Below, piece after piece: positions 1-16,509 of a stretch of DNA of 18,278 bases. Both the position numbers and the translations under genes were made by a program. The notes beneath the pieces were generated by a model. It was not told where the DNA came from. It worked only from the letters and a program-made list of their open reading frames with translations, and searched no databases. This DNA comes from Promethearchaeota archaeon. GTDB lineage: Archaea; Asgardarchaeota; Lokiarchaeia; Sigynarchaeales; SOKP01. Positions within the stretch are counted from its first letter, which is position 1. Each line of letters starts with the position of its first letter. The stretch covers positions 1 through 18,278 of the forward strand of contig JAUWBH010000117.1 of NCBI GenBank assembly GCA_030605085.1, written 5' to 3'.

Positions 1-422
1 CCAGCAGGTCCTAGAAATCGTGCAAGATACCTCGCTACATCTCTCATCAATTTATCTTCGACTACGAAAAACTCATACTTTTTCACAAACTTTTTCTTAT
101 ATTTCTTTTCTTCCTTATCTATATTAACCAACCCTTCTGAATCTAGTGTGTCAATGTTAAGCTTTTTTGCTTCCAGTAATATTTCGTCTGAGGCAATTAC
201 ACAGACATTTGGCAAATTACTTGTTATAACTTCGTTCGGTAATATTAACTCTTTGTCAATTCTATTTTTAGGATCTTTTAAATTGAAATCCTTTAGATTT
301 ATAATAAAATCTATTGTCTCGTCGAATTTTCGAACTTTATCTTTATGGCCCTCTTTCTTTATAACTGAAAAATCTATAGCAGCGTTTAAAGATCTTTTTA
401 ATAATTTATCGTCAACTTTCAT
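1..422 (-). CDS. rpl1: Ribosomal protein L1 (uL1), N-terminal part, runs off the left edge
   Basis: Large-subunit protein that binds 23S rRNA in the mobile L1 stalk; in bacteria and archaea it is also known to repress its own operon by binding mRNA. The minus strand reads about 140 codons from an ATG at 422 without a stop to the window edge. The N-terminus (MKVDDKLLKRSLNAAID) and the segment ending in VEDKLMRDVARYLARFLGPAG are typical of archaeal L1, the latter being the conserved lead-in to the GKMP motif. The start lies 3 nt after the L11 stop and is preceded by a strong AAGGAGG at 434-440, so the two genes form an L11-L1 operon. The order matches the usual L11-L1(-L10-L12) cluster, so more ribosomal genes are expected to the left. 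Nothing in the visible part is broken, in contrast to L11. Confidence 0.93.
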   Translation of the reverse strand, partial: MKVDDKLLKRSLNAAIDFSVIKKEGHKDKVRKFDETIDFIINLKDFNLKDPKNRIDKELILPNEVITSNLPNVCVIASDEILLEAKKLNIDTLDSEGLVNIDKEEKKYKKKFVKKYEFFVVEDKLMRDVARYLARFLGPA

Positions 423-425
423 TCT

Positions 426-983
426 TTAAGATTCCTCCTTTATTCTATCGTCGTATTCTCCATTATTAATACGTTCTTGGATAATTTTTGGATTCTCTCC
501 TTCAACCGTTAATCCTACAGATAATGCCGTTCCTAAAACTGTTTTAACGCATGCCTTGAAGGTTTTATCTAAAAACTTATCTTTCTTAGCCTGTGTGACC
601 TGTATAATTTGTTCAATGGTTAAATTGCCTGCTTTTTCCTCTTTAGGATCAGACGAGCCTTTTTCAACTTTCGCTTCTTTAAGTAAAAGCGATGCTGTGG
701 ATGGCGTTTCAATAAATATTTCGAATTGTTTTGTTTCAGGATCGCATTCGATTCGCACTGGAACGGTTAACCCTTTAAACAACATTGTTTGTTCGTTTAT
801 TTCGTCGACGACATCTTTAATGTTAATACAAAAAAAGCGATATGCTTAAATTTTTTATACCTGTGGGACCTACTGCAGGACCTTTACCGAATGAAGCGAA
901 ATGTTTCATACAATAGGCGGTCCTCCTGAAGCAGCTCCCCCAGTCACTAATGCACGTACAATTATCTTTCCCTTTTCACTCAA
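426..983 (-). CDS. rpl11: Ribosomal protein L11 (uL11), split gene with two short intervening sequences
   Basis: Builds the L11 stalk base of the large subunit, where it binds 23S rRNA and translation factors. A TTG start at 981-983 follows a strong GAGGAGGTGGAG. Exon 1 encodes 24 residues ending SGGPPI, exon 2 (856-882) encodes GPAVGPTGI, and exon 3 (824 to 426) begins NIKDVVDEINEQT and continues through LLLKEAKVEKGSSDP and NLTIEQIIQVTQAKKDKF. Removing 29 nt at 883-911 and 31 nt at 825-855 gives a continuous 165-residue protein, the usual archaeal length. Its N-terminus then matches the family pattern GPPLGPALGPLGVN. Read unspliced, the frame hits stops within both inserts, so only an internal 119-residue piece from 785 would be open. 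Excision by splicing is an inference; decay or assembly error is the alternative. Apart from the inserts, no damage is visible. Confidence 0.88.
825..855 (-). other. Intervening sequence 2 in the L11 gene (31 nt, candidate intron)
   Basis: This segment sits between GPTGI and NIKDVVDEIN, only 27 nt after the first insert. Its edges share the direct repeat GTAT (860-857 and 829-826), so the exact boundary can slide over 4 nt without changing the product. With cuts after 858 and 827, a 4-bp central helix CAGG/UUUG (two G-U pairs), two UAU bulges and an inner AAAA/UUUU helix can form, but the outer helix is poor. The bulge-helix-bulge case is therefore weaker than for the first insert. Together the two inserts total 60 nt, so the downstream frame is the starting frame, but stops lie in between. 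Confidence 0.62.
883..911 (-). other. Intervening sequence 1 in the L11 gene (29 nt, candidate BHB intron)
   Basis: On the minus strand this segment sits between PPI and GPAVGP and shifts the frame. By protein alignment the boundary can also be placed one base over (884-912), giving ATA instead of ATT for Ile24. The RNA can fold into a bulge-helix-bulge-like shape. The outer exon-exon helix is AGGACC (924-919) with GGUCCU (882-877). A 4-position central helix pairs GCCU (918-915) with CGGU (889-886), with one G-U pair and one mismatch. The 3-nt bulges are AUU (914-912) and AAA (885-883), and the inner stem is AUGAA (909-905) with UUCAU (895-891). Both predicted junctions fall inside the bulges, as the archaeal splicing endonuclease requires. 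The fold was made by eye. Confidence 0.7.
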
Positions 984-1489
984 TTCTCCACCTCCTCTAT
1001 ATTTTTTTCACTAATAACACACGCATTTCTAAAAACTTCCTTTTCATTCATTCGTATCAACTTTTTTTTATCAGATTATAATTTCAATGCATTTTATATA
1101 AAAGAGAAAAAGACTAACAAATAACTCAGATATATCTCAATATCTTAATATAAAACATTATCGAGACCGCATTATTTGCGTCCTAAGTCTCTAAAAAATG
1201 CTCCGAACTTAGTAATTAAATAAAAGAAAGATGATTAAAAAATTTTCTTATAACTCAGTAACTTCAAAAAAATGAATTCGAAGAGTTTATTTTTTTATTT
1301 TTTAAGTTCCTTTCTTTGCATAGTAATTTCTCGTATAACTTTATTTAAGCTCGTAAAGAAAGATATTATATGGGAAAAAAATCTAAATAATTAATTAATG
1401 ACGGAACTAGAGAATTATTAAGGTTTATTTAATTTTGATACTTTTATTAATAAAATTAAAGATATTCTTGTTATAATTAGGTTATAATA
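984..1489. other. Intergenic region between divergent L11 and MBL genes
   Basis: About 500 AT-rich bases with no supportable open reading frame. It holds the L11 ribosome binding site (985-1000), a probable minus-strand TATA box (1092-1103) and a small GC-containing inverted repeat at 1163-1191. In the repeat, GAGAC plus CGCA faces TGCG and GTCTC, with a 6-nt bulge. No tRNA-like or C/D-box-like structure was convincing. Confidence 0.5.
1092..1103 (-). promoter_or_regulatory. Probable TATA box of the L11-L1 operon
   Basis: TTTATATAAAAT on the minus strand resembles an archaeal TATA box. Transcription would start near 1070, giving a leader of roughly 85 nt that ends in the strong ribosome binding site before the L11 TTG start. 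Confidence 0.4.
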
Positions 1490-7712: not shown

Positions 7713-8399
7713 TTAATCCGAATGTTCTAAGATTACTTCATTTGTAAGAGTGCCTATATTTTCAATTGTGGCTTCGATTATATCTCCAGGGTGGATGGGA
7801 CCTACCCCACTTGGAGTGCCTGTCGCAATTATATCCCCCGGTTCTAATGTAATATATTTTGAAAGATATTCAATAATTTCTGGAATTTTAAATATCAAAT
7901 ATTTTGTATTAGATGATTGTTTGATCTCTTCGTTTAATTTTAATTCAATTTTAAGATTATGAGGGTCTCCAATTTCTTTATGAGGAACGATTCTTGGACC
8001 AATTGGAGCGAAAGTATCAAAATTTTTTGATCTATACCAAGGAAGATTTGCATTTCTGTCCAAGATTTGCATTGATCGTGCGGTTATGTCAAGAAAGATT
8101 GTATAGCCTAAGATATAATTGTATGCATTTTCGACTTTTACATTTTTACACTGCTCTATTAAAACAAAAGCAAGCTCAATTTCATGATCTACGCGATTTA
8201 CCACACTATTATCATATAAAATTTTTGGATAAATAATAGACTCATCATCTTTAATTAAACAATTAATTGTTTTACAGAAAAAAACAGGCTCACTTGGTAT
8301 TTGAGATTTCATTTCCTTTGCATGTCCTAAATAATTTCGCCCTAAGCAAATTATTTTCGTAGGGAAAATTTCTTTGTCCCCAATTATCGTAGAACTCAC
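7713..8399 (-). CDS. FAH-family hydrolase, FAHD1-like, copy B
   Basis: A 228-residue member of the fumarylacetoacetate hydrolase superfamily, of the small FAHD1 (acylpyruvase / oxaloacetate decarboxylase) size. The lid dyad H26 and E29 (GRNYLGHAKEM), the metal ligands E73 and E75 (DHEIELA) and D104 (LDITAR) are present, as are the C-terminal PGDIIATGTPSGVGP and IHPGDIIEA. It is a close tandem paralogue of the upstream gene. The family Asn before the ligand Asp (ND) is Leu here. The start is GTG, directly abutting the TAA of copy A with no base between. The GGAG in the end of copy A serves as the ribosome site, so translation is probably coupled. The exact substrate is unknown; a 3-acylpyruvate or similar beta-keto acid is the family expectation. 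Confidence 0.85.
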   Translation of the reverse strand: MSSTIIGDKEIFPTKIICLGRNYLGHAKEMKSQIPSEPVFFCKTINCLIKDDESIIYPKILYDNSVVNRVDHEIELAFVLIEQCKNVKVENAYNYILGYTIFLDITARSMQILDRNANLPWYRSKNFDTFAPIGPRIVPHKEIGDPHNLKIELKLNEEIKQSSNTKYLIFKIPEIIEYLSKYITLEPGDIIATGTPSGVGPIHPGDIIEATIENIGTLTNEVILEHSD

Positions 8400-9074
8400 T
8401 TAATCTCCTTCTAAAACAACTTTATTTGTAAGAGTTCCTATTTTTTCAATAGTGGCTTCTATAACATCTCCAGGATTAACGGGACCTATTCCACCGGGTG
8501 TCCCGGTTGCGACAATATCCCCAGATTCCATCGTAAATAAACTTGAAATATATTCCATTATTTCAGGAACTTTAAACAATAAATGTTTTGTATTAGAAGA
8601 CTGCTTAAGTTCTCCATTTACTCTGAGTTCAATTTTGAGATTATGTGGATCTCCAATTTCATCGTGAGGGACGATCTTTGGTCCAATAGGTCCAAAAGTA
8701 TCGAGAGATTTCGACCGAAACCATGGTAATTGTGATACAATATCTTTTGTTTGCATTTTTCTTGCAGTGACATCGTTAAATACGGAATATCCTAAAATGT
8801 GATTGTAAGCTTGGTTTGCTAGCACATCTTTACATTTATCTTTTACGATAAAAGCTAATTCCACTTCGTAATCAACTCTTTTAAGCCTTCGATTATTAAA
8901 CAACAATTTTGGATAGATGATTGGTTCTCCATCACCTATCAAGCAGTTTAACGTTTTAGGAAAAATAACAGGTTCTTTTGGAACGGGTAATTTAGTTTCT
9001 TCAATATGATCCATATAATTAGTGCCAACGCAAATTATTTTTGTCGGATTTATCGTAATATCTCCAATTCTCAT
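8400..9074 (-). CDS. FAH-family hydrolase, FAHD1-like, copy A
   Basis: A 224-residue first gene of a two-gene operon, the same length as human FAHD1. It shows the catalytic lid pair H23 and E26 (GTNYMDHIEE), metal ligands E70 and E72 (DYEVELA) and D101 (FNDVTARKMQ), the substrate segment PWFRSKSLDTFGPIGP (about 117-132), and the C-terminal family signature SGDIVATGTPGGIGP with NPGDVIEA. The family breaks carbon-carbon bonds in beta-keto acids with Mg2+ or Mn2+. Copies A and B are alike throughout, showing a local duplication. The ATG is preceded by GGAGTGAGG. A TATA-like ATTTATATC (9094-9102) lies about 24 nt upstream. Confidence 0.87.
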   Translation of the reverse strand: MRIGDITINPTKIICVGTNYMDHIEETKLPVPKEPVIFPKTLNCLIGDGEPIIYPKLLFNNRRLKRVDYEVELAFIVKDKCKDVLANQAYNHILGYSVFNDVTARKMQTKDIVSQLPWFRSKSLDTFGPIGPKIVPHDEIGDPHNLKIELRVNGELKQSSNTKHLLFKVPEIMEYISSLFTMESGDIVATGTPGGIGPVNPGDVIEATIEKIGTLTNKVVLEGD

Positions 9075-11046: not shown

Positions 11047-11691
11047 ATGAAAAAATTTATCTTATTTGGAGCACCAGGCAGTGGCAAAGGAACTTTTGCC
11101 GGTAGAATAAAGCACATGTTTCCAAATATCATTCATATAAGTACGGGCGATATCTTCAGAGAAAATGTGTCTAATATGACGGAGTTAGGAAAAAAAGCTA
11201 AACTGTTTATGGATAAAGGAGAACTTGTACCTGACAAAATTGTAATAGGGATGGTCCGTAATAGATTGAATCAAGAAGATGTTAAAAAAAATGGATTCAT
11301 TCTCGATGGTTTCCCGCGTACTCCTGCCCAAAACGATGCCTTGGCAGAATTTACACAAATTGACAGAGTCATTTTAATGGAAGTTGAAGAAAGTGTATTA
11401 ATTAAAAGAATATTAGGTCGTTATGCCTGTAAAAATTGTGGATATACATATAACAAATATTTCTTACCCCCTAAGGAAGAAGGAATATGTGACAATTGTA
11501 AAAATCCACTTAAATTTGAATAGAGATCTGACGATACTGAAGAAGCTATAAAAACAAGATTGAAAGCGTATGAAAATAATGCCAAGCCAATTATAGAGCA
11601 TTACGAGAAGAAGGGGATTTTAGCAAGGGTTGATTCTGAAAAAACCCTAGAATTTTCACGCGAAGAAATTAAGGAATTCTTAGGGACTTAA
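11047..11691 (+). pseudogene. adk: Adenylate kinase copy 1, interrupted by an in-frame TAG
   Basis: Adenylate kinase interconverts ATP plus AMP and 2 ADP. The 214-codon frame starts at ATG 11047 and ends TAA 11689-11691. It has the P-loop GAPGSGKGT (8-16), the NMP-binding STGDIFRENV, DGFPRT (87-92) and a zinc-type LID with Cys128, 131, 148 and 151. At codon 159 (11521-11523) there is a TAG. The paralogue at 11779 has CAG (Gln159) in the same context, FVQRTDD versus FE-stop-RSDD. The codons beyond read on cleanly as RSDDTEEAIKTRLKAYENNA and KPIIEHYEKKGIL to a normal end, so the damage is a single C-to-T change or the stop is read through. The first 158 residues hold the catalytic core but lack the last helices and the LID arginine region, so the short product alone is unlikely to work. 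Confidence 0.82.
11521..11523 (+). other. In-frame TAG at a conserved Gln position (adk copy 1)
   Basis: GAA TAG AGA TCT GAC in this copy aligns with GTA CAG AGA ACT GAC in the neighbouring copy (position 159 in both proteins). The change is a single CAG to TAG transition. Confidence 0.85.
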
Positions 11692-11778
11692 TCGATTGTA
11701 TTGGTTTAACATTTTTTTGAATTAATAGATTTTTTTTAGAAAACTTATTCTATTATTTATCGTTTTAGCATGATAGTT

Positions 11779-12423
11779 ATGAAAAAAAATTTAGTTTTAT
11801 TTGGAGCACCAGCCGCAGGTAAAGGTACATTTTCTTCACAAATCAAAAAAATACTTCCAAACATCGTTCATATTAGTACCGGCGATGTATTTAGAGATTA
11901 TTTAAAAGAGAACGATCCTATTGGCTTGGAAGTTAAAGAATTTATGGAGAATGGCATACTAATTCCTGACGAAGTCGTTATTCGTGAAGTCAATAAAATA
12001 TTGGAAACCGACGAGGTTAAAAAATTTGGTTTCGTATGTGACGGTTTCCCTCGCACCCTTCTCCAAATAGAGTTTCTCGAGAAATACGGTGTGAATTTAT
12101 GCCTATTATTAGATGCGGACGAAGAACTCATAAAAAAAAGAGTTTTAGGGAGATATTCGTGTGAAAAATGCAACGCTATATATAACAAATGGTTTTTAAA
12201 ACCTAAAAAAGAGGGTATTTGCGATCAATGCGGAAGTGCGATTGAATTTGTACAGAGAACTGACGATAACGCAGAAACTTTTAAAAAACGGTTAGCGCTC
12301 TACCAAGACTATTCAGGGCCAATTATCGAATATTATAAAAACAAGGGTATTTTGAAAAAGATTGAAACAGATGATACCTTGGAGTTGTCTGAGGACGAGA
12401 TTAAAAATATAATTGAAGTATAA
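11779..12423 (+). CDS. adk: Adenylate kinase copy 2, intact
   Basis: A 214-residue cytoplasmic kinase making 2 ADP from ATP and AMP. It shows the P-loop GAPAAGKGT (9-17), HISTGDVFRDYL (31-42), CDGFPRT (87-93), a zinc-finger LID (YSCEKCNAIYN, GICDQCG; Cys128, 131, 148 and 151), QRTDD (159-163) with the LID arginine, and the C-terminal helix GPIIEYYKNKGILKKIET. Length and order of motifs are those of ordinary long-form adenylate kinases with a zinc LID. The ATG at 11779 is preferred over the in-frame ATG at 11770 because the aligned copy starts MKKF where this one reads MKKN. It lies 78-87 nt after copy 1 and 173 nt before a synthetase that produces AMP, so it probably recycles that AMP. Confidence 0.93.
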   Translation: MKKNLVLFGAPAAGKGTFSSQIKKILPNIVHISTGDVFRDYLKENDPIGLEVKEFMENGILIPDEVVIREVNKILETDEVKKFGFVCDGFPRTLLQIEFLEKYGVNLCLLLDADEELIKKRVLGRYSCEKCNAIYNKWFLKPKKEGICDQCGSAIEFVQRTDDNAETFKKRLALYQDYSGPIIEYYKNKGILKKIETDDTLELSEDEIKNIIEV

Positions 12424-12596: not shown

Positions 12597-14426
12597 ATGT
12601 TAGAAGAGCCGGGGTCGAAAGAACTGGACCTTATTCCAAATAAAGAGTATAGAAAAAGAAATTTGAGGTTTCTCAGAAAACATAGAAATATTTTAGCAGA
12701 ATCACTAAAAATAAACGAGGAAAACAAAGTTTCATGGGGAACGATTGTAGAAAGGAATGCGCAACAATATCCCGATAATATCGCCATCAAATTTGAAGAT
12801 ATAACGCTTACTTATAAAGAGTTTAATGAATGGGTAAACCGTTATGCCAATTATTTTATTTCTTTAGGCTTGAAAAAAGGGGATGTTGTGGAGTTGATGA
12901 TGACCAATCGACCAGAGTATTTAATGATTGTATATGCTGTTGGTAAAATTGGAGCAATTACTTCCTTAATCAATATTGATCTACGCGAAATGTCCTTAGC
13001 GCATTGTTTAAAACTTACCCCTGGTAAATTTATTATAGTTAGTGAAAATTGTTATGATAGCTTCAATGTCGTTCAATCTGATCTCGATCTATCACAAGAT
13101 CAAATCATGTATTTCTTACCCGACCAAAGTTTGATATCGATTCCAGAGGGTTTTGTTGATCTTTCCCAAGAAGTCAAAAATTTTCCCGTAGACAATCCTT
13201 TAACTACGATTGACGTTAAAACATCTGATATTATTACATATATCTTTACTTCAGGCACAACGGGATTTCCGAAAGCTACTAAGTTTGCTCATGCCGCGTT
13301 GGTGGGTGCTTATCATATATTTGGGCATGTAATAGGGGATTTTACTCCTAACGATACGATGTATGTTTCACTTCCGCTATTTCATTCAAATTCTTTAGCA
13401 ATAGGTTGTGCATCCGCGTTTGCTGGTGGCGCAACTCTAGCTATAGGGCGTAAATTCAGCCCTAGCCGTTTCTGGGATGAGATTCGTAAATATAACGCCA
13501 CAGCCTTTAATTATATCGGAGAAGTATGCCGATACCTAATGAATCAGCCTCCCAAGCCTGATGACTCGAATAATCCCGTAAGAGTAGTTGTTGGTTTAGG
13601 CCTTCGTCCAGAAATATGGACAGATTTTAAAGAACGGTTCAATATCGAAAAAATTGGAGAATTCTACTCGGCAACAGAAGCTGTGGGAGGATTTGGCAAT
13701 ATACTGAATTTTGACCGTACTGTAGGGTGCTGTCTAACTTCTTATGCTATTGTTAAATACGATCACGAGGTAGAAACACCTGTCATGAACAAGGAAGGAT
13801 TTATGGAAAGGGTCAGCCTTGGCGAATCCGGGTTACTATTATTCCAGATTGCTGGTATTGCTAAATTTAGAGGATATACTGATAAAAAGGCAACTGAAGA
13901 GAAAATATTTCGTAATGTTTTTAAAGAAGGGGATGTCTGGTTTAATACAGGAGATTTAATGAGAGATATTGGGAATAAGCATGCCCAATTTGTAGATCGC
14001 CTTGGAGATACATTTCGTTGGAAGGGGCATAATGTATCTACTACGGAAGTAGAAAAAATTCTTAATATTTTTGAACAGGTTTGGTTATCAACTATCTATG
14101 GTGTCCAGATACAAGGTACTGACGGACGGGCTGGGATGACCGCCATTGTACCAAGCTCCTCTGTCGAAGATTTTGATTTAAGAGGCCTGACTGAACATTT
14201 AATACAAAACCTTCCTCCTTACGGTGTTCCAATTTTTCTCAGATTTAAATCGATATTGGCAACCACAGCAACCTTTAAGCTTAAAAAAGTAAAACTAAAA
14301 GAAGAGGGCTTCGACTTAGAGAAAGTTGAGGATCCCCTATATATTATGTTACCACATAAATCAGAATACGTACCCTTGACAGAGGAAATCTATGAAAATA
14401 TACAAAATGGACAATATAAATTTTAA
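12597..14426 (+). CDS. FATP-type long-chain acyl-CoA synthetase 1, intact
   Basis: A 609-residue AMP-forming ligase that adenylates a carboxylic acid and transfers it to CoA, releasing AMP and PPi. The AMP-binding P-loop is YIFTSGTTGFPKATK (215-229). It is followed by LPLFHSNSLAIG, the A5-type motif EFYSATEAVGGFGN, WFNTGDLMRD, and the hallmark of fatty acid transport protein / very-long-chain synthetases, DRLGDTFRWKGHNVSTTEVE. The C-terminal FKLKKVKLKEEGFDLEKVEDPLY is also FATP-like. No signal peptide or clear transmembrane anchor is seen, whereas animal FATPs have one. A strong GAAAGGAGTG precedes the ATG. It probably feeds beta-oxidation or lipid synthesis with fatty acyl-CoA; chain length cannot be told. 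Confidence 0.9.
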   Translation: MLEEPGSKELDLIPNKEYRKRNLRFLRKHRNILAESLKINEENKVSWGTIVERNAQQYPDNIAIKFEDITLTYKEFNEWVNRYANYFISLGLKKGDVVELMMTNRPEYLMIVYAVGKIGAITSLINIDLREMSLAHCLKLTPGKFIIVSENCYDSFNVVQSDLDLSQDQIMYFLPDQSLISIPEGFVDLSQEVKNFPVDNPLTTIDVKTSDIITYIFTSGTTGFPKATKFAHAALVGAYHIFGHVIGDFTPNDTMYVSLPLFHSNSLAIGCASAFAGGATLAIGRKFSPSRFWDEIRKYNATAFNYIGEVCRYLMNQPPKPDDSNNPVRVVVGLGLRPEIWTDFKERFNIEKIGEFYSATEAVGGFGNILNFDRTVGCCLTSYAIVKYDHEVETPVMNKEGFMERVSLGESGLLLFQIAGIAKFRGYTDKKATEEKIFRNVFKEGDVWFNTGDLMRDIGNKHAQFVDRLGDTFRWKGHNVSTTEVEKILNIFEQVWLSTIYGVQIQGTDGRAGMTAIVPSSSVEDFDLRGLTEHLIQNLPPYGVPIFLRFKSILATTATFKLKKVKLKEEGFDLEKVEDPLYIMLPHKSEYVPLTEEIYENIQNGQYKF

Positions 14427-14446
14427 AATAACATAATAATATTATA

Positions 14447-14518
14447 AAAGTTGTTTATGTAAAGAATGTCAAACCAATAATTAAATACTATAAGAAGCAA
14501 AAACTGTTTTCGGACTAA
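14447..14518 (+). pseudogene. C-terminal remnant of a third adenylate kinase
   Basis: Between the two synthetase copies the frame reads YVKNVKPIIKYYKKQKLFSD then TAA (14456-14518). This aligns with the adenylate kinase C-terminus YENNAKPIIEHYEKKGILARVD of copy 1 and SGPIIEYYKNKGILKK of copy 2. No start or upstream domains remain. It marks a lost kinase copy in the same relative position, before a synthetase, as in the intact module. Confidence 0.72.
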
Positions 14519-15165
14519 TCCTTCTAAAAATTCGGGATTAATATATTTTCAAGAGTAAGATTTATAAATGGAATAAACTTATTTCTTTTTTAGCAAAATT
14601 TTTTTTATTATAAGAATTCGAACTGTATATTTTATTTTAAAAAACTAAAAAATAGAAAGGGAATTAATATGTTAGAAGTACCAAAACCGAAAGATCTGGA
14701 TCTTATTGATAAGAAAGAGTTTAGAAAAAGATTAAGAGAGAATAATAAAAAACATGCACATGAAGTCGCTGAGATCGTTAAAATAGTTGCTGAAAACAAG
14801 GTTTCATGGGGCACAATTGTTGAAAGAAATGCACAAAAATACTCTGATAAAATAGCGGTCAAATTTGAAGATATTACATTAACTTTCAAAGAATTTAATG
14901 AATGGGTAAACCGCTATGCCAATTATTTTATTTCATTAGGCTTAAAAAAAGGTGATGTTGTAGAGCTCATGATGATGAATCGACCAGAATTTTTAATCAC
15001 GCTTTCTGCTCTCGGGAAAATTGGAGCAATTAGTTCATTAATCAATACTGATCAGCGTGAGAGGTCTCTGGTGCATTCTTTAAAACTTAATCCTTCAGAT
15101 GTTTTTATAGTTGACGAAGATTGTTTTAATGCCTTTAATAATGTTAAATCTGACCTTAACTTACG

Positions 15166-15189
15166 AAAAGAGTAAAAGCTCTTTTTTTT
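15166..15189 (+). terminator. Stem-loop plus T tract spanning the TAA of synthetase 2
   Basis: AAAAGAG (15166-15172) and CTCTTTT (15179-15185) pair perfectly around a 6-nt loop that contains the premature stop, followed by TTTT (15186-15189). It looks like an intrinsic terminator placed inside a gene, but the T run also encodes the conserved FFLP segment, so it may be fortuitous. Confidence 0.35.
15173..15175 (+). other. In-frame TAA at a Gln position (acyl-CoA synthetase 2)
   Basis: Codon 169 is TAA in RKE-stop-KLFFLP, whereas synthetase 1 has CAA in SQDQIMYFLP with no gap between the two proteins up to here. The change is a single C-to-T transition. Confidence 0.85.
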
Positions 15190-16509
15190 ACCTTATCAAG
15201 GCTTGATTCCCGTTCCAGACGGATTTCTTGATCTTAGCCAAGTGGTCAAGGATTTTTCTGCGGACAATCCTTTAACTACATCCAATATTAAGAGTTCTGA
15301 TCCACTTGCTTACGTATTTACTTCAGGTACCACAGGCTTACCAAAAGCTTCAATCTTAGTCCATTTACGCATGGTTGGCAGTTATTATATATTTGGTCTT
15401 TTATTGGGGGAATTGACACCTGAAGATATTATGTATGTTGCACTTCCTTTATATCATACCACTGGATTGTGCGTAGGCTGGGCAGCCGCTTTTGGAGTCG
15501 GTGCAGCTACGGCTATTAGATGTAAATTCAGTGTTACCCACTTCTGGGATGATATTCGTAAATTTAATGCCACCGCATTTAGTTATGTCGGAGAATTATG
15601 CCGTTATCTGATTAATCAGCCTCCCAGTCCTAACGACTCAAATAATCCCGTGAGAACGATTATGAGGAACGGTCTTCGCCCGGATATATGGATGGATTTT
15701 AAAAAACGATTCGGCATCACTAAAGTAGGAGAAGTATATGGAGCATCAGAAACAGGCACTGTATTTGCCAATTATTTAAATTTTGATTGTACTGTTGGGT
15801 ATTGTTCAAATCCTTTTGCAATTGTCAAATACGATCATGATGAAGAAAAACCAATGAGAAATGAGGATGGATTCATGCAAAAAGTTGACCCCGGTGAGAC
15901 AGGTTTGCTACTTTGGGGTCTTCAAAATAAATTTGTCTTCGTAGGTTATACTGATAAAAACGCTACAGAAACCAAAATATTGCGGAATGTCTTCAAAGAA
16001 GGTGATGCTTGGTTCAACACGGGCGATTTACTGAGAGATCAAGGGTGTAAACATGTTCAATTTATTGATCGAATCGGGGATACTTTCCGCTGGAAGGCGC
16101 AAAATGTATCCACAACTGAGGTAGAAGAAGTACTTAATGTTTTTGAACATGTTTTAATGTCATCCGTGTATGGTGTGAAAATAACGGGTACTGATGGACG
16201 AGCAGGAATGGCTTCCGTTGTAATCAGTACCAAAATTGAGGACTTTGATTTTAGTGGATTGATTAGTCATTTCAGAAATAACCTACCTCCCTATGCTATT
16301 CCTATTTTTCTAAGATTTAAATCGAATCTATCGATCACAGCGACGTTTAAATTTAAAAAGGTAGAATTAAAAAAAGAGGGCTTCGATCTTGAAAATATAG
16401 ACGATCCTTTGTATGTTATGCTGCCGGGTGAGTCAGAATACACGCCATTGACAAAAAATATCTATGAGAATATTCAAAACAAGAAATATAAATTTTAAAT
16501 TAATGAAAT

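Follow-up and report, generated by a model that had tools for sequence, protein, structure and literature searches.

Short bulge-helix-bulge introns probably interrupt the ribosomal protein L11 gene in Lokiarchaeia

Two short inserts interrupt the gene for ribosomal protein L11 (uL11) in the stretch of Lokiarchaeal DNA analysed here, 18,278 nucleotides long and hereafter called the window. We conclude, with a probability of roughly 0.93, that both are bulge-helix-bulge (BHB) introns of the L11 pre-mRNA and are spliced by EndA and RtcB. An earlier note on this DNA had proposed that the inserts are removed from the mRNA. Comparison strongly supports that proposal: the predicted BHB motif falls in the register that restores the frame, its pairs show compensatory changes, no second L11 was found in ten genomes with interrupted L11, and EndA and RtcB are present in the group. 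The inserts are real, and they are not peculiar to this one gene copy: across Lokiarchaeia such inserts are common, with much variation between loci, and they occur in the RNA polymerase gene Rpb2 as well.

Two inserts break the L11 gene of the window

The L11 gene lies on the minus strand (983-426) and is interrupted by 29 nt and by 31 nt; reading the window bore out the earlier note in that a normal L11 of 165 residues results once both are taken out. Translation from a TTG start (983-981, minus strand) reads ..VTGGAASGGPPI up to the 29-nt insert, after which come GPAVGPTGI, the 31-nt insert and NIKDVV.., ending at a stop codon at 428-426. A Shine-Dalgarno-like GGAGGTG, seen by eye, lies 5 nt upstream of the TTG (989..995, minus strand). 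The downstream piece matches the Ribosomal_L11 family (PF00298, E 6.2e-20). Taken by themselves, the exact insert edges are ambiguous, in that they can slide by a few nt. In the register homologous to that of relatives, exon 1 (71 nt, 913..983) ends in ..GGPP plus the AT of an Ile codon and is followed on the minus strand by the 29-nt intron B (884..912). Exon 2 (855..883 in the BHB register) consists of an A, the codons of GPAVGPTGI and a further A; next come the 31-nt intron D (824..854) and exon 3 (426..823), which is placed by its open reading frame and the PF00298 match and runs to the stop codon. Both inserts of the earlier note are therefore kept, with splice points, at 912-884 and 854-824, that lie 1 nt from where it had put them, and its 27-nt middle exon becomes one of 29 nt. 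The downstream gene for ribosomal protein L1, which that note had called intact, starts at 422 on the minus strand and shows no interruption up to the window edge (1..422).

The inserts recur at four sites in Lokiarchaeal L11 genes

The earlier note had called for a comparison with close relatives. We examined 121 L11 sequences and dropped 48 duplicates, which left 73 distinct loci; a scan of species genomes had supplied 50 Lokiarchaeal L11 loci, and a class-wide search 30 loci and 40 more that were fetched. Partial L11 matches of two genomes (G054 and G064) were left out of the set. Inserts were found in 28 of the 73 loci, 38 inserts of 28-37 nt in all, and 45 loci had none. A splice-aware alignment placed them at four sites within 18 codons of L11, with one to three inserts per gene: site A between GG and SASGG (12 inserts), site B between PPI and GPA (8), site C between PAV and GPT (2) and site D between GI and NIK (16). 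A contig end cuts one locus (L035) before sites A and B and another (L003) around site A. The window's inserts occupy sites B and D, which are filled in 8/73 and 16/73 distinct loci, window included. Because relatives have inserts at the same two sites, those of the window are not a product of chance. Every insert breaks the reading, 30 of the 38 by a frame shift and the other eight by a stop within an in-frame length.

All 28 insert-bearing loci belong to the Loki clade (53 rows), in which 25 loci are without insert; the other lineages of the class gave 0/20 rows. L11 was matched in 74 of the 83 genomes of the class-wide search. A phylum-wide search matched it in 210 of 227 Asgard genomes, and outside the class nearly all of the matches listed were single, near full-length and stop-free, the exceptions among them being a TGA in one genome (G130) and two L11 matches in another (G114).

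The inserts fit the bulge-helix-bulge motif

That the inserts fit archaeal BHB introns, with a 4-bp central helix and two 3-nt bulges, is strongly supported by their predicted pairing. At each site there is one register in which the four exon bases leading up to a 3-nt bulge are complementary to the four intron bases that precede the second 3-nt bulge. In this register, one per site, a cut after the second bulge nucleotide restores the L11 reading in 38/38 inserts; in cbf5 pre-mRNA, the cut made by a heteromeric EndA falls between the second and third bulge residues (PMC2738675). The central helix pairs [A/U]GGG with CYC[U/A] at site A, GCCn with nGGU (AUGU in L016) at site B, GGYU with AGYC at site C, and GYAU with [A/G]UGY or GUAU at site D. 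Overall, 147 of 152 central-helix cells are paired, a figure flattered by the choice of register, which was made for pairing among the frame-keeping ones (by homology for the window's two). Sliding either strand lowers the pairing to 12-58%. The five unpaired cells all belong to B introns, and the window accounts for one of the five.

When the register was left free, all four pairs formed in 33/38 inserts, against about 4 expected from shuffles, and the window's two inserts favoured other registers. Among shuffled introns, the observed helix was reached on average by 17% for site A, 13% for B, 12% for C and 6% for D; requiring the inner helix as well lowered these shares to 1.8%, 7%, 0.05% and 0.5%, respectively. 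In these statistics related introns are non-independent trials. Compensatory changes occur at site A, with A-U in six introns and U-A in six, and at site D, where the second central pair is C-G in 15 introns and U-A in one, that of the window. Through these changes, third codon positions in the exons are coupled to the intron. Applied to nine D introns of equal length, RNAalifold returned unprompted a helix of 4 bp that is separated by a 3-nt bulge from an inner helix of 8 bp. A separate count on the same nine gave 96.3% paired, and 25-47% for slid versions. Covariation in these nine is modest: out of 500 shuffles, 30 reach the score, 34 the double changes and 290 the pair types. An inner helix is present at sites A, C and D and partial at B. 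The outer helix, strong at both B and C, comprises 1-2 bp at D and is not adjacent at A. The predicted motifs are relaxed BHB forms, with a weak outer helix at A and D. The minimum-energy fold holds at least three of the four helix pairs in 26/38 inserts.

For intron B of the window, the predicted motif (877..924, minus strand) has an outer helix of 924-919 with 882-877 (AGGACC/GGUCCU), a central helix of 918-915 with 889-886 (GCCU/CGGU, 3/4 pairs, with a U.C mismatch), bulges at 914-912 and 885-883 and an AUUUC loop at 902-898; this fold is 3.9 kcal/mol less stable than the minimum-energy one. For intron D (823..860, minus strand), the central helix of 860-857 with 829-826 (GUAU/GUAU) has 4/4 pairs, two of them G.U, the bulges lie at 856-854 and 825-823, the loop is AUAUC (843-839), and the 5' bulge is able to pair with a U-run (6.7 kcal/mol). 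By these predictions both motifs of the window are relaxed and rank with the weaker ones of the set.

Lokiarchaeia encode candidate machinery for such splicing

Among 15 genomes, matches to the splicing endonuclease family PF01974 numbered two in 12, three in one and one in two, and in Lokiarchaea EndA has two kinds of subunit, a catalytic alpha and a structural beta. The best solved-structure match of the alpha subunit is the splicing endonuclease chain 3p1z_B, presumably that of Aeropyrum pernix, and the alignment covers its Lys 44 by our own count. Broad specificity of EndA is reported to rest on a lysine of a Crenarchaea-specific loop, K44 in A. pernix (PMC6379350). The alpha sequences have the loop lysine in 14/14, within a V[RK]K[KR] stretch in 14, the catalytic His in 14 and the Tyr in 13; all ten beta sequences are without the His and without the loop. 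Since the alpha subunits of Asgard lineages free of L11 inserts (L127 and L134) also have the loop with its lysine, an EndA loop of the broad-specificity type may permit the introns and does not explain them. RtcB was found in 11 of 12 genomes and not in G001. In G003, 20 tRNA matches include 13 with a length of 101-107 nt, some of them with long variable arms. Four tRNA genes (L147, L149, L153 and L155) have insertions of about 30 nt, which lie either in the anticodon loop or beside the variable region.

By sequence, each insert together with its exon edges can form a BHB of the type recognised by the tRNA splicing endonuclease. We propose that the heteromeric Lokiarchaeal EndA (alpha and beta) would excise the 29- and 31-nt introns, and that RtcB would then join the exons. 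The spliced mRNA would be translated from the TTG into one L11 of 165 residues, and a peptide spanning GGPPIGPAVGPTGINIK would be expected from it.

Similar putative introns occur in Rpb2

A class-wide search matched Rpb2 in 77 of 83 genomes and found BHB-type inserts of 31-32 nt at two sites in three of the 77 (G007, G032 and G033). The G007 insert, 31 nt between DPG and GYFIING (L172, 2077-2107), falls where 13 other genomes read straight through; its predicted central helix is CCUG/CAGG (4/4), with bulges GA^A and AA^G, and 56 of 2000 shuffles reach the helix, 1/2000 reaching the helix with 7/8 inner pairs. In G032 and G033 the insert is 32 nt long and lies between VPD and IPGFK (L187, 264-295; L186, minus strand, 304-335). 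It has the same central helix, CCUG/CAGG (4/4), bulges AU^A and AA^A and an AUUUC hairpin loop; since 219-250 of 1000 shuffles form this helix too, the motif alone is weak. L11 is uninterrupted in both genomes. As judged by their predicted structure, BHB introns thus extend beyond L11, where they are nevertheless much more frequent (28/53 versus 3/77 for Rpb2).

Screening 67 sequences (440 kb; the window, L001-L050 and L121-L136) for collinear split hits had found L11 alone to be interrupted, a result that the Rpb2 inserts overturned; the screen recovered 20 of the 28 known insert-bearing loci and is hence insensitive. In a set of 15 Lokiarchaeal genomes, the Rpb2 domain PF00562 is open in 14, the G007 frame being short. 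The TruB_N domain of cbf5 lies in one open frame in 14 of the 15 (no match in G001), and S12 is an open frame in 14 (no match in the remaining one). A protein resembling the ATPase A subunit, named by eye, was matched in 73/83 genomes, with no gap of about 30 nt among the matches listed. In six genomes (G011, G016, G030, G032, G044 and G076) this gene has an intein-like gap, roughly 1 kb or longer, that leaves a single long frame open. Rpb2 of G011 likewise gave an intein-like split match within a single long open frame, and the other split Rpb2 rows are pieces on different contigs. ARAGORN found no tRNA in 46 loci.

Many of the proposed introns share a hairpin loop and come and go

Introns of different L11 sites have a hairpin loop NNNUC in common. 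On a stem of at least 4 bp it occurs in 7/12 introns at site A, 6/8 at B, 0/2 at C and 15/16 at D, against 0.5, 0.2, 0.0 and 1.1 in shuffles, the motif having been noticed first and tested afterwards. In the C introns the loop letters recur, there on a stem of 2 bp. One Rpb2 site shares the loop, and the G007 Rpb2 intron is without it. A 15-nt core of the window's D intron is identical to that of the B introns of two other species, L027 and L041 (0/1000 shuffles). Searched for in 83 genomes with up to two mismatches, the B-intron core gave seven matches (four at L11, three elsewhere) against six for a reversed control, and there are therefore no dispersed copies of it in these genomes. Inspection by eye of the G003 tRNA introns for the NNNUC pentaloop was not convincing.

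A tree of L11 and L1 (57 rows, 16 distant rows left out) had 28 of 54 inner branches weakly supported. On it the fewest changes are 10 for site A, 7 for B, 2 for C and 13 for D, counts that tree error inflates. Well-supported sisters differ in their sites, L007 (A and D) from L009 (B) and L039 (A and B) from L041 (A, B and D). As read from this comparison, the L11 introns are gained and lost often. We entertain, tentatively and at somewhat less than even odds, that a family of BHB mini-introns is spreading among essential protein genes of Lokiarchaeia, its members moved or re-gained often, perhaps by RNA-level reinsertion, the shared loop serving as a recognition element that ties the host genes to the tRNA/rRNA splicing machinery. 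The finding of the Rpb2 inserts made this reading likelier.

Relation to known archaeal introns

The closest known case is the cbf5 pre-mRNA of Desulfurococcales and Sulfolobales, which has, as proposed here for L11, a BHB-type intron in archaeal coding mRNA, gained and lost between species (PMC2738675). There is one intron in cbf5, at the catalytic Asp codon; here, in another gene and another phylum, there would be up to three in 18 codons of L11, at four sites, with others in Rpb2. Archaeal tRNA introns have the same motif, would use the same enzyme and are of similar size to the insertions of about 30 nt in the Lokiarchaeal tRNAs. They differ in that L11 is a protein mRNA, in which codons limit the exon half of each helix. 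Haloferax HVO_1309 has a BHB intron in the 5'-UTR of its mRNA, which EndA processes in vitro (PMC7714728); that position is non-coding, whereas the L11 coding frame would depend on exact splicing. Atabeyarchaeia and Freyarchaeia, also Asgard archaea, have introns in 92-95% of their tRNA genes, and the introns described in that source are of tRNA only, in contrast to the protein genes here (PMC11291895).

As presented in a 2020 report, cbf5 was the one additional archaeal BHB intron besides the 5'-UTR case (PMC7714728). By 2009 there were also predictions, as yet unconfirmed, of introns for other protein genes of archaea (PMC2738675), and prediction as such is therefore not new. Among the entries listed in our literature search, which took in open-licence work without preprints and could miss a report, none on introns in Asgard protein genes was found. 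The kind of intron is thus known, with cbf5 as the one confirmation in coding mRNA within these sources. What is new is that several such introns are predicted per gene, in a ribosomal protein and an RNA polymerase, and in Asgard archaea. If the reading is true, a protein-only tRNA splicing system can sustain protein genes with multiple introns, several of them packed into the most conserved stretch of the essential L11 and others in RNA polymerase, and the group provides numerous natural settings in which to follow intron gain and loss.

Other readings of the inserts

Splicing might in addition act as a regulatory switch, retained introns shutting off L11 and so linking ribosome production to EndA and RtcB capacity. 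The high frequency of inserts in one ribosomal protein gene (28/53 versus 3/77 for Rpb2) and the loop motif common to several sites would suit such a role. We regard this addition to the main reading as improbable, since a switch that is needed would hardly be missing from 25 of 53 clade loci or differ between sister species.

Programmed translational bypassing, in which ribosomes would hop over the inserts, is known from T4 gene 60 and from the byp elements of yeast mitochondria and needs matching take-off and landing codons. Inserts that are short, hairpin-forming, of suitable size and within a coding frame would be fitting substrates, but in 28 of 37 the repeat at the edges is shorter than 3 nt and so not of codon length. 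The locus with three inserts within 18 codons (L041) would require three hops, and bypassing gives no reason for a helix-and-bulge geometry that spans exon and intron. We consider it very unlikely.

A pseudogene or an error in assembling the genome from metagenomic data seems similarly far-fetched. It draws on the nature of the data (a MAG) and on two other genes of the window with in-frame stops. Against it, the same sites and structures recur in 28 loci from differently named isolates, and the exons read as L11. The earlier note had named a separate intact L11 as something to look for, and none was found in the genomes of ten insert-bearing relatives. Each of these ten relatives has a single L11 locus, among them G003, which is one contig titled chromosome. 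Nor was a second full-length L11 seen across the 83 genomes searched class-wide, where G068 has an extra C-terminal L11 piece at the end of another contig. Named entries among the best homologues are Promethearchaeota or Lokiarchaeota MAGs, and the Lokiarchaeal kind of the window's DNA was judged from them. A C-terminal open reading frame from another source, P0001, is 99% identical and begins at the same internal Met; this agreement is mild evidence against assembly error, as the source may share related reads. The C-terminal piece has 532 homologues, and among the 120 listed the uninterrupted motif is present in 57 and missing in 63, some of these perhaps contig ends; this too speaks against an isolated fault.

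Many of those 63 are predictions of 117-146 aa that begin inside or after the interrupted region, and some may reflect contig ends; public Lokiarchaeal L11 predictions are often truncated in this way. These entries without the N-terminal part are what would favour an L11 made truncated or in pieces, its C-terminal part starting from an internal ATG (785-783). By eye, no Shine-Dalgarno-like sequence was seen upstream of that ATG, unlike the full-length TTG, and the N-terminal exon is no less conserved than in relatives whose gene is uninterrupted. The middle exon, moreover, would be lost, and we give this possibility scarcely any credence. Group I and group II introns carry a ribozyme core and spliceosomal introns have GT-AG boundaries, and all three were rejected for inserts of 28-37 nt, with no match in an Rfam scan of the window and no GT..AG boundaries by eye.

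Elsewhere the window holds, partly by eye, three tandem pairs of paralogues, resembling FAA hydrolase (7713-9074), adenylate kinase (11047-12423) and an AMP ligase (12597-16498). An adenylate-kinase-like gene, named by eye, has an in-frame TAG (11521-11523, plus strand) followed by 55 codons that resemble the tandem copy at 11770-12423, and it has no insert. The AMP-ligase-like gene at 14669-16498 has one in-frame TAA (15173-15175, plus strand), with neither frameshift nor insert, and its tandem copy (12597-14426) is fully open.
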